DNA of 64,000 bases, from contig NZ_SRIO01000007.1 in NCBI RefSeq assembly GCF_004684205.1, forward strand, positions 62,001-126,000. The letters run 5' to 3'. The position numbers and the translations under genes are program-made. This document shows, one piece after another, positions 1 to 5,123 of the stretch (position 1 is the first letter of the stretch; each line of letters opens with the position of its first letter). The notes under the pieces are model-generated. The model was given only the letters and a program-made list of their open reading frames with translations, was not told the DNA's origin and did not search any database. Origin of the DNA: Candidatus Macondimonas diazotrophica. GTDB taxonomy: Bacteria; Pseudomonadota; Gammaproteobacteria; UBA5335.

Positions 1-124
1 GCGCCCAGGCCGCAATCCCAAGACGGGCGAGGAAATTCCGATTTCCGCGCGGCGGGTGGTGACCTTCCGTCCGGGCCAGAATCTGCGCGCACGGGTGCAT
101 GCGTATGTTGGAAAGCGGCAATAA
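1..124 (+). CDS. ihfA: Integration host factor subunit alpha, C-terminal end (5' truncated by window edge)
   Basis: Reading from base 2, the last 40 codons give the C-terminal beta-arm and tail of a DNABII protein: [20 protein letters not shown] followed by [10 protein letters not shown]. This matches the DNA-bending arm of IHF-alpha, including the Pro-containing arm tip that intercalates in the minor groove. The IHF-alpha/beta heterodimer bends DNA in the nucleoid and at promoters. The stop overlaps the start of the following MerR-type gene by 26 bases, the usual ihfA-merR arrangement in Gammaproteobacteria, which argues for alpha rather than HU or IHF-beta. Only the 3' end is visible. Confidence 0.93.
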
Positions 125-455
125 CGACGAGCTGCCTCCGATTCCGGGCAAGCGCTATTTCACCATTGGTGAGGTCAGTGAGCTGTGTGCGGTCAAGCCG
201 CATGTGCTTCGGTATTGGGAGCAGGAATTCGACGAGCTCAGCCCCTCCAAACGGCGCGGCAATCGCCGCTATTATCAGCGCAGTGATGTGCTGCTGATTC
301 GCCAGATCCGCGACCTGCTTTACTATCAGGGATTCACCATCAGTGGGGCGCGCCAGAAACTCGCCAGCCCCGTTGCCGATTCCGATCAGCGGCGCGAGCG
401 CATTCGGGAACTGCGTGTTGAACTCGAGGAAGTGCTGCAGTTTCTGCGCAGTTGA
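99..455 (+). CDS. MerR-family transcriptional regulator downstream of ihfA
   Basis: This 118-residue protein has an N-terminal MerR winged helix (about residues 20-90: [20 protein letters not shown], then WEQEF and [15 protein letters not shown]) and a short C-terminal helix. It lacks the long coiled coil and the cysteine ligand sites of metal-sensing MerR proteins, so the effector is unknown. The gene starts inside the 3' end of ihfA and is probably co-transcribed with it, an arrangement very common in Gammaproteobacteria. An in-frame ATG at 105 is an alternative start. The family is clear; the target genes are not known from sequence. Confidence 0.9.
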
Positions 456-471
456 TTTTGGTGAAAAGCGC

Positions 472-500
472 TTCCCAGATACATCCAATGCAGGTATGAT
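472..500 (+). promoter_or_regulatory. Probable sigma70 promoter of tRNA-Pro
   Basis: TTCCCA (472-477), a 17-base spacer and TATGAT (495-500) lie about 57 bases before the mature tRNA 5' end. GC-rich bases follow the -10 element, as is usual for stringently controlled stable-RNA promoters. Inferred from consensus only. Confidence 0.5.
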
Positions 501-556
501 TGCGCCCTCGCCGAGGCAGGCTTCGAGACTCGAAGCAGTGTCTCACGGCGTAACGT

Positions 557-633
557 CGGGGCGTAGCGCAGTTTGGTAGCGCACCAGCATGGGGTGCTGG
601 GGGTCGCAGGTTCAAATCCTGCCGCCCCGACCA
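557..633 (+). tRNA. tRNA-Pro (anticodon GGG)
   Basis: A complete 77-base tRNA cloverleaf with the 3' CCA encoded (631-633). The acceptor stem is CGGGGCG / CGCCCCG. The D arm contains GCGCAGTTTGGTAGCGC. The anticodon stem CCAGC/GCTGG (584-588/596-600) closes the loop ATGGGGT with anticodon GGG at 591-593. The T arm contains GGTTCAAATCC. It reads proline codon CCC (and CCU by wobble). It stands alone between the MerR gene and a hydrolase gene; no integrase or att duplication is visible beside it. Confidence 0.97.
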
Positions 634-712
634 TCTTCCCCAGTCGCGGTTAAGCACACCGTGGCATGGCTTTTCCATCCCGCATCCTCTACCACGCCAT
701 TGCCCTGTGACT

Positions 713-731
713 CGCCGACAGGCGGTTTTTT
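713..731 (+). terminator. Possible weak terminator after tRNA-Pro
   Basis: A short hairpin CGCC-GACA-GGCG (713-724) is followed by G and a run of six T. The stem is only four pairs, so termination efficiency is uncertain. An alternative pairing CCTGT/ACAGG in the same stretch is also possible. Confidence 0.35.
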
Positions 732-753
732 CAGGCTGCAGAGGTTGGTTGGC

Positions 754-1668
754 ATGGAACAGGAAATCACGCAGGCGCCGGACTGGTTCGTCCGGGCGGT
801 TCAGACCCCTTATCGCGAGCGGCGAATCGAAGTGGAAGGTTGTCCCATCCACTATCTGACATGGGGTGAAACCGGCAAGCCCGGCCTGCTCCTGGTTCAT
901 GGCGGTGGCGCACATGCCCATTGGTGGGATTTCATCGCGCCGTTTTTCATTGATCGCTATTCCGTCTGTGCGGTTGACCTGAGCGGCATGGGAGACAGCG
1001 GCCATCGCGATCAGTATTCCGGTGATCTGTTTGCCAAGGAATTGATGAGCGTCTGCGAAGATGCGGGCTTCGGCGCCAATACCGTCATCGCCGGGCATAG
1101 TTTCGGCGGCCTGGCCACTTTGAAGGCCGGCCTGCACTATGCCAATCGGCTGTCCGGAATCGTGGTGTGCGATTCGGCGATTTTCCCCCCAGGCTTCAGC
1201 CCCGGAAACGACATGCGCTCGTCGCCCTTCAAAGAAAAGAAGACCGTATATCCCGACTTCGAGTCAGCCGTCGCCCGCTTCAAGCTGGTTCCCCCGCAGC
1301 CCTGCGCCAATCGCTATATCCTGGACTATATCGCCCGGCATTCGTTGATGGCCGTGGAGGGCGGATGGACTTGGAAATTCGACATGCGCTTCCTGCAAAA
1401 GACGATCTACGATGATCTGGCGATGGAAGTGAAGCAGCTGAAGATCCCGGCAGCCATGCTTTATGGCGAAAAAAGTATGTTGTTCGGCAAGTTCATGTTG
1501 GAAAATACCCGCAAGTGGTATGCCGACGACGTGCCGTTCATTTGCCTGCCCAAGGCACGCCATCATCTGTTCCTGGATGAGCCGCTCGATTTTGTCGATA
1601 CGCTGGCGGGCATCATCGATCCATGGACCGGGGTGCCCGCTGCAACTCCGGCGAAGCGCTTGCCCTGA
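754..1668 (+). CDS. Alpha/beta-fold hydrolase
   Basis: A 304-residue single-domain alpha/beta hydrolase. An HGGGAHAHWW oxyanion-hole region lies at about residues 49-58. The nucleophile elbow GHSFGG has Ser at about 116, and a C-terminal catalytic His sits in ARHHLFLDEP. Cytosolic, with no signal peptide. The frame stays open upstream through the tRNA, so the ATG at 754 is chosen: it gives a normal N-terminus (MEQEITQAPDW) outside the tRNA. The family includes epoxide hydrolases, esterases and haloperoxidase-like enzymes; the substrate cannot be told from sequence or neighbours. Confidence 0.85.
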   Translation: MEQEITQAPDWFVRAVQTPYRERRIEVEGCPIHYLTWGETGKPGLLLVHGGGAHAHWWDFIAPFFIDRYSVCAVDLSGMGDSGHRDQYSGDLFAKELMSVCEDAGFGANTVIAGHSFGGLATLKAGLHYANRLSGIVVCDSAIFPPGFSPGNDMRSSPFKEKKTVYPDFESAVARFKLVPPQPCANRYILDYIARHSLMAVEGGWTWKFDMRFLQKTIYDDLAMEVKQLKIPAAMLYGEKSMLFGKFMLENTRKWYADDVPFICLPKARHHLFLDEPLDFVDTLAGIIDPWTGVPAATPAKRLP

Positions 1669-1698
1669 CGGCAGGCGAGCCGGTCGATTCGGTATCCC

Positions 1699-2124
1699 AT
1701 GCGTCGTCCTGCGCTATTTGTATATGGCACCCTGCGTCGCGGCGAGCCTGCCCAGCACTTGCTGGCCGGCGCCGACTACCTGGGGGCCGTAGTCATCTCC
1801 CGCCGGTTTGATCTGCGCGCGTTGGCACGCTACCCGATGGCTTGGTCACCGGGGCGTCATGCGGTGGCGGGAGAATGTTACCGCGTTTCACCATTGACGC
1901 TGCGTCGCGTGGATCGCTTTGAGCAGATTCCCTGGGCGTATCGTCGTCGCCTGATTCGAACCCTTCTGGGATGGGCTTGGATCTATCTGGGCCATGACGG
2001 GGCAGATCTGCCGAGACGCGGACGCCGGTTGCCCCACGGACTGTGGCGGTCCGTTCCCCGCACCCATGAGGGACGACGGGTTTGCCGCACTGGCTTGGCG
2101 GCTGCGCGGAGGTACCGTGATTGA
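1699..2124 (+). CDS. Gamma-glutamylcyclotransferase-like (GGCT/AIG2) protein
   Basis: A 141-residue protein opening with LFVYGTLRRGE, the diagnostic YGTL glycine loop of the GGCT/BtrG/YtfP fold. VDRFEQIPWAYRRRLI supplies the position normally holding the catalytic Glu. Family members release 5-oxoproline from gamma-glutamyl compounds or cyclise related amines. The C-terminal third is Arg-rich and unlike typical members, so substrate and activity are uncertain. The gene is followed with an 8-base overlap by the NAD regulator, suggesting co-translation. Confidence 0.7.
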   Translation: MRRPALFVYGTLRRGEPAQHLLAGADYLGAVVISRRFDLRALARYPMAWSPGRHAVAGECYRVSPLTLRRVDRFEQIPWAYRRRLIRTLLGWAWIYLGHDGADLPRRGRRLPHGLWRSVPRTHEGRRVCRTGLAAARRYRD

Positions 2125-3085
2125 GCTGTCTCCGGTGACATCCGAGGGTGCCGATGCGCTTCGGGTCGATCTGTGCGCCATGATCCTCGCCGTGACAGCT
2201 GGCGTGCCGCGCATACTGACCATTCAAACCCCGGATTCGGCGCTGGCCGAACAGCCCCTGTTGCATGCACTGCCTTGGGGGCCGCTGGATCCACGAACCG
2301 ACCGCACCCTGGAGCGGACCTTGCGCAGTTGGGTGGCGCGCCAGTCACGACTGTCGCTGGGTTATGTCGAGCAGCTCTATACCTTCGACGAAGGACGCGC
2401 CGGAGAAGGACTGCGGCGCATCAGTGTGGCATACCTGGCCTTGATGCAGGAGCAGGCTATTGCGCAGCCCGGTGCAAACTGGCGGGATGTGTACGCCTTT
2501 TTTCCGTGGGAAGACTGGCGTGATGGACGTCCGGCGGTCATCGACGAGCAATTGATTCCGGCACTTCAGCATTGGTTGACTGGTCTGCCTGATCCGATCC
2601 AGATCGAACGCGAGCGCGAGCGGATGGATATCCATTTCGGACTGAACGGCGCCCCCTGGGTGCCTGAACGGGTCTTGGAGCGTTACGAGTTGCTCTACCA
2701 GGCCGCTCTGGTGCCCGAATGCGGCACCACCGGTGGTCATCCCGCCTTGGGAATGCCCATGGCATTGAATCACCGGCGCGTGGTGGCCACGGCGATGAGT
2801 CGTCTGCGCGGCAAGATCCAATATCGGCCGGTCGTTTTCGAGTTGTTACCCGCGCGTTTCACCCTGTGGCAGTTACAGCAGGTGGTGGAGGCGTTGACCG
2901 GGATGAGTCTGCACAAGCAGAACTTCCGGCGTCTGGTCGAGCAGGGGGGGCTGGTGGCCAGTACCGGAGAACTGGCCTACGACACCGGAGGTCGCCCCGC
3001 GCAATTGTTCCGCTTTCGCAGACGGGTATTGCGCGAGCGTCCGACTCCCGGAGTGGGGTTGCCGGGCGGGTTTCGTGACAGTTGA
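2117..3085 (+). CDS. nadQ: NadQ/NrtR-type NAD biosynthesis transcriptional regulator (NUDIX-like domain plus winged helix)
   Basis: A protein of about 322 residues. The N-terminal part resembles the degenerate NUDIX sensor domain of NrtR/NadQ regulators (RTLERTLRSWVARQSRLSLG and then YVEQLYTF). The C-terminal part holds the typical winged helix: RFTLWQLQQVVEALTGMSLH, KQNFRRLVEQGGLV and GGRPAQLFRFR. No complete NUDIX box is seen, so it should bind an NAD-pathway metabolite rather than hydrolyse one. GTG 2117 is chosen because GGAGG (2108-2112) precedes it; an ATG at 2066 is an in-frame alternative without a ribosome site. The stop lies inside the -35 hexamer of the nadA promoter, pointing to nadA as its target. 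NadQ is best known in Alphaproteobacteria. Confidence 0.78.
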   Translation: MIELSPVTSEGADALRVDLCAMILAVTAGVPRILTIQTPDSALAEQPLLHALPWGPLDPRTDRTLERTLRSWVARQSRLSLGYVEQLYTFDEGRAGEGLRRISVAYLALMQEQAIAQPGANWRDVYAFFPWEDWRDGRPAVIDEQLIPALQHWLTGLPDPIQIERERERMDIHFGLNGAPWVPERVLERYELLYQAALVPECGTTGGHPALGMPMALNHRRVVATAMSRLRGKIQYRPVVFELLPARFTLWQLQQVVEALTGMSLHKQNFRRLVEQGGLVASTGELAYDTGGRPAQLFRFRRRVLRERPTPGVGLPGGFRDS

Positions 3086-3112
3086 CACCCTTTATGCTCA
3101 ACTCTAGTATAA
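3082..3112 (+). promoter_or_regulatory. nadA promoter with overlapping palindromic operator (probable NadQ site)
   Basis: TTGACA (3082-3087), a spacer of exactly 17 bases and TAGTAT (3105-3110) form a near-consensus sigma70 promoter. An imperfect palindrome TTATGCT-N7-AGTATAA (3092-3112) covers the spacer and the -10 hexamer, the ideal place for a repressor. The regulator gene immediately upstream is the obvious candidate to bind it. Confidence 0.7.
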
Positions 3113-3179: not shown

Positions 3180-4253
3180 ATGAACCGACTCACACCCCAT
3201 GATTCTTCGGCCGTGCCGACATTGGATGCGACTCAGCGCAAGGCATTGGAACCCATCTATGCCCGCATGCAGCATGTGGTACCCGAAGTCGAGTGGGCCG
3301 TGCACGCGCCCTATGTTGCGGCGATCAACCGGCTCAAGCGGGAGCGCAACGCGGTCATTCTCGCCCATAACTATCAGACCCCCGAAGTGTTCTACGGGAT
3401 TGCCGATTACACCGGGGATTCGCTGGGTCTGGCGCAGCATGCGGCGCACACCGACGCTGATGTGATCGTCCAGTGCGGCGTTCATTTCATGGCCGAGACC
3501 TCCAAGGTGTTGAGCCCGGGAAAGACCGTGCTGATCCCTGATACCGAAGCGGGCTGCTCACTGGCTGATTCGATCACACCGGCCGATATTGCGTTGTTGC
3601 GCAAGCGCTATCCCGGCGTGCCGGTCGTGACGTATGTGAATACATCGGCGGCCGTCAAGGCAGCTTCTGATATCTGCTGCACCTCGGCCAATGCCGTAGA
3701 AGTGGTCGAATCGCTCGGGACCGACCGGGTGATTTTCCTGCCGGATCAGTATCTGGGACGCTGGGTCGCGTCCAAGACCGATGTGCAGGTCATCCTCTGG
3801 CAGGGGGCGTGCGAGGTGCACGAGCGCTTTACCGGCCCACAGCTGCGTGAATATCGCCAGCGCCACCCCGGCATCCACATCATCGCCCATCCCGAATGTC
3901 CGCCGGATGTCCTGGACGAAGCGGACTATGTGGGGTCCACTACGGGTATGGTGCGCCATATCGAGGAAGCCGGTGCCTCCCGGGTGGTCATGGTCACTGA
4001 GTGCTCCATGAGCGACAACGTGGCGGTGCAGTTTCCGAGCGTGGAATTCATTCGTCCCTGCAATCTGTGCCCGCACATGAAACGCATTACGCTGCCCAAG
4101 GTGCTGCATGCGCTGCAGACCCTGTCCCCGGCCGTCGAGGTGGATCCCGAGGTCGCCGCGGGTGCGCGTCTTGCCGTGGAACGGATGCTGGCCGTCGGGC
4201 GTGGACAGGAGAACGGTCCGGCGCTCATGCCGCGTCAGGCTGCGGTTGGCTGA
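3180..4253 (+). CDS. nadA: Quinolinate synthase A
   Basis: A 357-residue enzyme that condenses iminoaspartate with dihydroxyacetone phosphate to quinolinate, the first pyridine ring of de novo NAD synthesis. Visible motifs are LAHNYQTPEVFYGIADYTGD near residue 62 and the three [4Fe-4S] ligands in VQCGVHFMAET, ICCTSANAVEV and CNLCPHMKRITL. Length and motif spacing are normal. nadB and nadC are not in the window, so this is a single-gene unit under its own promoter, adjacent to the NadQ-type regulator. Confidence 0.97.
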   Translation: MNRLTPHDSSAVPTLDATQRKALEPIYARMQHVVPEVEWAVHAPYVAAINRLKRERNAVILAHNYQTPEVFYGIADYTGDSLGLAQHAAHTDADVIVQCGVHFMAETSKVLSPGKTVLIPDTEAGCSLADSITPADIALLRKRYPGVPVVTYVNTSAAVKAASDICCTSANAVEVVESLGTDRVIFLPDQYLGRWVASKTDVQVILWQGACEVHERFTGPQLREYRQRHPGIHIIAHPECPPDVLDEADYVGSTTGMVRHIEEAGASRVVMVTECSMSDNVAVQFPSVEFIRPCNLCPHMKRITLPKVLHALQTLSPAVEVDPEVAAGARLAVERMLAVGRGQENGPALMPRQAAVG

Positions 4254-4369: not shown

Positions 4370-4588
4370 ATGTACGTCTGTGTTTGTCGTGCTGTCACCA
4401 ACCGGGATCTTGCGGAGGCAATGGCCCAGGGGCATCAGACCTTGCCCGCTCTGCAATCGACGCTGGGTGTTGCGACCGGATGCGGCCGCTGTCGCGGTCA
4501 TGTCTGCCAGATGCTTGAGCGTGCATCCGACATGCCCTTCGCACCGATGACGACCACGACGGATCGCTGTGCTGTTTCCGCAGGCTGA
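4370..4588 (+). CDS. bfd: Bacterioferritin-associated ferredoxin
   Basis: A 72-residue [2Fe-2S] protein that reduces bacterioferritin to release stored iron. The ligand pattern is CVC near the N-terminus (MYVCVCRAV) and CGRC (TGCGRCRGHV), as in the BFD/NirB-type helix-turn-helix fold. GGAGGAA at about 4356-4362 is a good ribosome site for the ATG at 4370. A Fur-like box lies just upstream and bfr follows, so iron release and storage are encoded together. Confidence 0.93.
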   Translation: MYVCVCRAVTNRDLAEAMAQGHQTLPALQSTLGVATGCGRCRGHVCQMLERASDMPFAPMTTTTDRCAVSAG

Positions 4589-4658
4589 CGCGTAACCCTA
4601 CCGGGGCGACCTCGCTTTCGATTAAGATTGCGAGGTAGATATTCCTCGGAGCGTTGTC

Positions 4659-5123
4659 ATGAAAGGTCATCCTCAGGCCATCGAGTGGCTCAATCGAATC
4701 CTCGAAAATGAGCTCACCGCCATCAACCAGTACTTCCTGCATGCACGCATGTGCAAAAACTGGGGATATGAAAGCCTCGGCAAGAAGATCTATGCCGAGT
4801 CGATCGACGAGATGAAGCACGCCGATGTCCTGATCGAGCGAATTCTGTTTCTCGAAGGCCTGCCCAATCTTCAGTCGCTCGGCAAGCTGATGATTGGCGA
4901 ATCGGTTCGCGAGGTGCTGCGCTGCGATCTGGAACTGGAGCGTATTGCCCATCCAGCCCTCAAGGACGCGATTGCCTTCATGGAAGGCATCGGCGACTAC
5001 ATCAGCCGGGAAGTACTTGAAGACATCCTCGAAAGCGAGGAAGAGCACATCGACTGGCTCGAAACCCAGCTCCATCTGATGGACGAGCTGGGCGATCCCA
5101 ACTATCTTCAGTCAGCGGTTTAA
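4659..5123 (+). CDS. bfr: Bacterioferritin
   Basis: A 154-residue four-helix ferritin forming a 24-subunit haem-containing iron store. All ferroxidase-centre ligands are present at their usual positions: Glu18, Glu51, His54, Glu94, Glu127 and His130. The haem ligand Met52 is also present (SIDEMKHAD). It follows bfd. The 70-base gap contains an inverted repeat ACCTCGC/GCGAGGT (4609-4636) without a T-run, so its role is unclear. Both ligand set and length are those of a functional haem bacterioferritin. Confidence 0.97.
   Translation: MKGHPQAIEWLNRILENELTAINQYFLHARMCKNWGYESLGKKIYAESIDEMKHADVLIERILFLEGLPNLQSLGKLMIGESVREVLRCDLELERIAHPALKDAIAFMEGIGDYISREVLEDILESEEEHIDWLETQLHLMDELGDPNYLQSAV

Follow-up and report, generated by a model that had tools for sequence, protein, structure and literature searches.

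In 2016, Leyn et al. (PMC5343134) predicted a role for NadQ (COG4111) in regulating the synthesis of NAD in Alphaproteobacteria, along with several members of the beta- and gammaproteobacteria, and gave its consensus as ttATRCTCannntGAGYATaa. NadQ was also treated by Minazzato et al. (2022), as cited in PMC11452294, and structures are available as PDB entries 7q91 to 7q94; the characterised NadQ is described as ATP-responsive. The site between nadQ and nadA described below is an instance of this already published regulatory system. It lies in the window, the whole 64,000-nucleotide stretch of DNA that was analysed, among the following features:

1699 to 2124, plus strand: gamma-glutamylcyclotransferase (AIG2-like) gene (Pfam GGACT, E = 2e-18).
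2117 to 3085, plus strand: nadQ, regulator of NAD synthesis (phmmer match to PDB 7q91 and NrtR_WHD domain).
3082 to 3087, plus strand: -35 hexamer TTGACA of the nadA promoter, read from the sequence and containing the nadQ stop codon.
3092 to 3112, no strand assigned: predicted NadQ operator TTATGCTCAACTCTAGTATAA, with two mismatches to the published consensus and a counterpart in 8 of 8 relatives.
3105 to 3110, plus strand: -10 hexamer TAGTAT of the nadA promoter, inside the right half-site.
3180 to 4253, plus strand: nadA, quinolinate synthase, a 4Fe-4S enzyme of de novo NAD synthesis (Pfam and NCBIfam).

The identities of both genes, as proposed in an earlier sequence-only reading of this DNA, hold up in database comparisons. 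The nadQ product matches PDB 7q91, entitled "NADQ transcription factor", with a phmmer E-value of 2.4e-74 (residues 57-357 against 43-332), and its C-terminal winged helix-turn-helix is recognised as NrtR_WHD (E = 2e-20; 73 bits, cut-off 27). Within the DNA-binding domain, the helix LHKQNFRRL-EQ has the same residues in the protein from the window and in the solved NadQ. This near full-length similarity to the characterised protein places the gene, which is present in a single copy in this genome, in the NadQ group (COG4111). The downstream gene is identified as nadA by the Pfam NadA model (E = 9e-116) and by NCBIfam NF006878 (378.6 bits, cut-off 294).

The longest open reading frame containing nadQ starts at ATG 1994, but translation probably begins at GTG 2117, because this codon is preceded by a Shine-Dalgarno sequence (GGAGGT, 2108-2113) and because homology in relatives begins there. 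With this start, nadQ overlaps the gamma-glutamylcyclotransferase gene on its 5′ side by 8 bp (2117-2124), an arrangement that suggests translational coupling; a homologue of that gene is found upstream of nadQ in family f1 only. Elsewhere in the neighbourhood, a tRNA-Pro (ggg) gene occupies 557-633, and the minus-strand open reading frame at 386-634 and the 5′ part of the one at 589-1668 lie spuriously over it. On the 3′ side of nadA (4370-5123) are a bacterioferritin-associated ferredoxin-like gene and an open reading frame that is bacterioferritin-like by appearance only. Neither has a persuasive Fur box in front of it; before the ferredoxin-like gene, a Fur box was considered and set aside as unsupported, the best candidate having mismatches at 7 of 19 positions.

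The promoter can be read directly from the sequence. As the sequence-only reading had it, TTGACA and TAGTAT are separated by 17 nt (3088-3104), and the TGA stop codon of nadQ (3083-3085) falls within the -35 hexamer; this pair is also the top-scoring promoter in the region. The palindrome has the form TTATGCT-N7-AGTATAA, in which six of the seven outer pairs are symmetric and a single G/A difference separates the half-sites. It was said to cover the promoter exactly, which is true of the entire -10 hexamer and of 13 of the 17 spacer bases; the -35 hexamer is left uncovered, the palindrome beginning 4 bp past it. Both mismatches to the published consensus lie in the right half (CT for TG), and thus the affinity of the site could be lower than that of a perfect one.

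The decisive evidence for this site comes from its conservation across relatives. A TTATRYT-N7-AGYATAA palindrome is found between nadQ and nadA in all eight nadQ-bearing relatives of the same order, and it stays in place while the flanking bases and the promoter vary; the loss of the palindrome from relatives with this gene arrangement, which the earlier account would have taken as a refutation, was not seen. The promoter is at the same place in three of these genomes (G001-G003) and likewise in G004 and G005, there with weaker hexamers. The best -10 hexamer of family f1, to which this genome and five others belong, is TAGTAT at operator position 14, in the right half-site, which reads TAG where the consensus has GAG. 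For the three genomes of family f2 it is instead TATACT, placed at operator position 2 within the left half-site and preceded by a TTGCA-type -35 element. Judged by promoter consensus, it appears that the operator has been kept between the two families and that the promoter has shifted by about 12 bp.

A broader comparison covered 63 nadQ loci (60 after removal of three duplicates of whole-genome matches) from alpha-, gamma- and one delta-labelled genome. Wherever nadA was present on the fetched stretch, a site with at most three mismatches lies upstream of it (22 of 22), and no site was seen at the 41 loci lacking nadA on that stretch, for which the sequence covered about 4 kb on either side of nadQ and sites elsewhere in the genome are possible. 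In the sample of the class outside this order, nadQ occurs in 5 of 365 genomes; two of these have nadQ adjoining nadA, with a site between or beside the genes carrying one and three mismatches, respectively.

Taken with the identities of NadQ and nadA and the match to the published motif, the conservation of the palindrome in all relatives with the nadQ-nadA arrangement makes it very probable that the palindrome is a NadQ operator through which the neighbouring NadQ would repress nadA. The repressor-operator-nadA unit of the sequence-only reading is thereby supported, with binding, repression and effector response standing as predictions. In the proposed mechanism, NadQ, as a dimer or a higher oligomer, would occupy the spacer and -10 hexamer in front of nadA and thereby occlude the promoter from RNA polymerase; a change in the effector state of NadQ would then lead to its release and to transcription of nadA. 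Repression is argued from the position of the site alone, and conceivably NadQ acts here as an activator or dual regulator rather than as a simple repressor. However, the site overlaps the -10 hexamer and spacer in family f1 and the -10 hexamer in family f2, which is where a repressor is expected, and NadQ is listed among the repressors of NAD genes (PMC12421817); such an activating or dual role is accordingly considered very unlikely.

It is still harder to credit that another regulator, such as an XRE-type repressor, binds the palindrome and that its place behind nadQ is incidental. Operators of the form TATACTC-N5-GAGTATA do appear to serve some XRE-type repressors, and on two viral contigs a similar palindrome adjoins an XRE-type gene, immediately before it in L156 and beside it in L091, but the association with nadQ plus nadA is perfect over the 63 loci and the palindrome matches the published NadQ motif.

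The palindrome is also rare. The consensus scan of the window returned one site with two mismatches, the next best having five. In the 2.8 Mb genome, which was scanned for sites by pattern only, a search for TTATNNTNNNNNNNANNATAA gave two matches and one for its reversed control gave none, and an independent-base model predicts about 1e-6 to 3e-5 such sites in the gap between nadQ and nadA, all of which argues against chance. A relaxed 17-mer core allowing three mismatches gave 248 genome matches versus 55 for the reversed control and was dropped as too loose. Although the palindrome does come after a stop codon, a chance or structural, terminator-like sequence ending nadQ is barely conceivable, given this rarity, the retention of position and sequence while the flanks change, and an A+T-rich composition lacking the T-run of an intrinsic terminator.

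The second place in the genome, outside the window, is TTATGCTCAATATGAGTATAA, at 812-832 of a 7.8 kb contig (C32) that is probably phage or prophage, since it carries a terminase large subunit gene. This site is a perfect match to the consensus and lies inside a TTGACA-17-TATAAG promoter, downstream of which no clear gene was found on the contig; an imperfect inverted repeat of about 390 bp (628-715 and 930-1017, 72%) is centred on the site. Among viral contigs in IMG/VR, 21 (L089-L109; about 16 independent) contain a perfect match, whereas four permuted versions of the palindrome gave 3, 5, 7 and 0. The palindrome stands before a terminase small subunit gene in L103, before a terminase large subunit gene in L101 and L106, 1-2 kb before such a gene in L091, L092 and L093, and before scaffold and head genes in L096. 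A tblastn search with the phage terminases for host assignment returned only distant relatives from mixed hosts. That some phages carry NadQ-type operators on their own promoters, and thus place their transcription under a host repressor that senses NAD or energy status, is an improbable reading of these sites. The C32 and viral palindromes may instead belong to another regulator, for example XRE-type or other repressors, since a palindrome of the same kind precedes the XRE-type repressor gene of L156.

Control by NadQ in this lineage appears to be limited to nadA. The sequence-only reading had proposed looking for the same palindrome before nadB and nadC, and none was found there: in nine genomes of the order, seven nadB loci and six nadC loci exceed their family cut-offs, and they show no site, the best matches carrying 5-8 mismatches. 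For this genome and most of its relatives, nothing closer than five mismatches lies around nadC or the high-scoring nadB loci. Upstream of nadQ itself (window positions 1-2200), the best match has eight mismatches, and so autoregulation was set aside as unsupported.

The presence of NadQ in a gammaproteobacterium, which the sequence-only reading emphasised, is supported, but its novelty was overstated, as the regulator had already been reported from several beta- and gammaproteobacteria (PMC5343134). In a tree of nadQ sequences, examined with horizontal transfer from Alphaproteobacteria at issue, the members of the order group with Rhodospirillales and with further members of the class in one mixed clade, the deep forks being weakly supported. 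The nadQ-nadA site leaves the general picture of NAD regulation unchanged. It extends the map of the NadQ regulon to a further order of the class, in what is probably a lineage of Gammaproteobacteria, where the regulon seems to be pared down to a single target. It also illustrates two alternative ways for an operator and a -10 hexamer to share bases, one in each of the sister families.

Similar comparisons can be drawn with other regulators of this pathway. NadR of Enterobacteriales also represses nadA, as is proposed here for NadQ, but it is an unrelated protein restricted to that group (PMC5343134). NrtR, the Nudix-related regulator of NAD metabolism, acts on the same pathway and has a homologous C-terminal winged helix (NrtR_WHD); unlike NrtR, however, the protein from the window has an N-terminal domain that is not the ADP-ribose-binding domain, and the NCBIfam NrtR model scores it at 67.3 bits, against a cut-off of 400, through a match that lies mainly in the winged helix-turn-helix. 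The NadQ regulon of Proteobacteria is the closest counterpart. In contrast to its published form, the right half-site here deviates and carries the -10 hexamer, the lineage, a small order, is represented solely by MAG-like assemblies, and of the published core, nadABC, only nadA has a site; the assignment to NadQ nonetheless stands, because regulon content varies between lineages. Shared with that regulon are the regulator family, the winged helix-turn-helix domain, the operator consensus, the nadA target and the placement of the regulator beside a nad gene.
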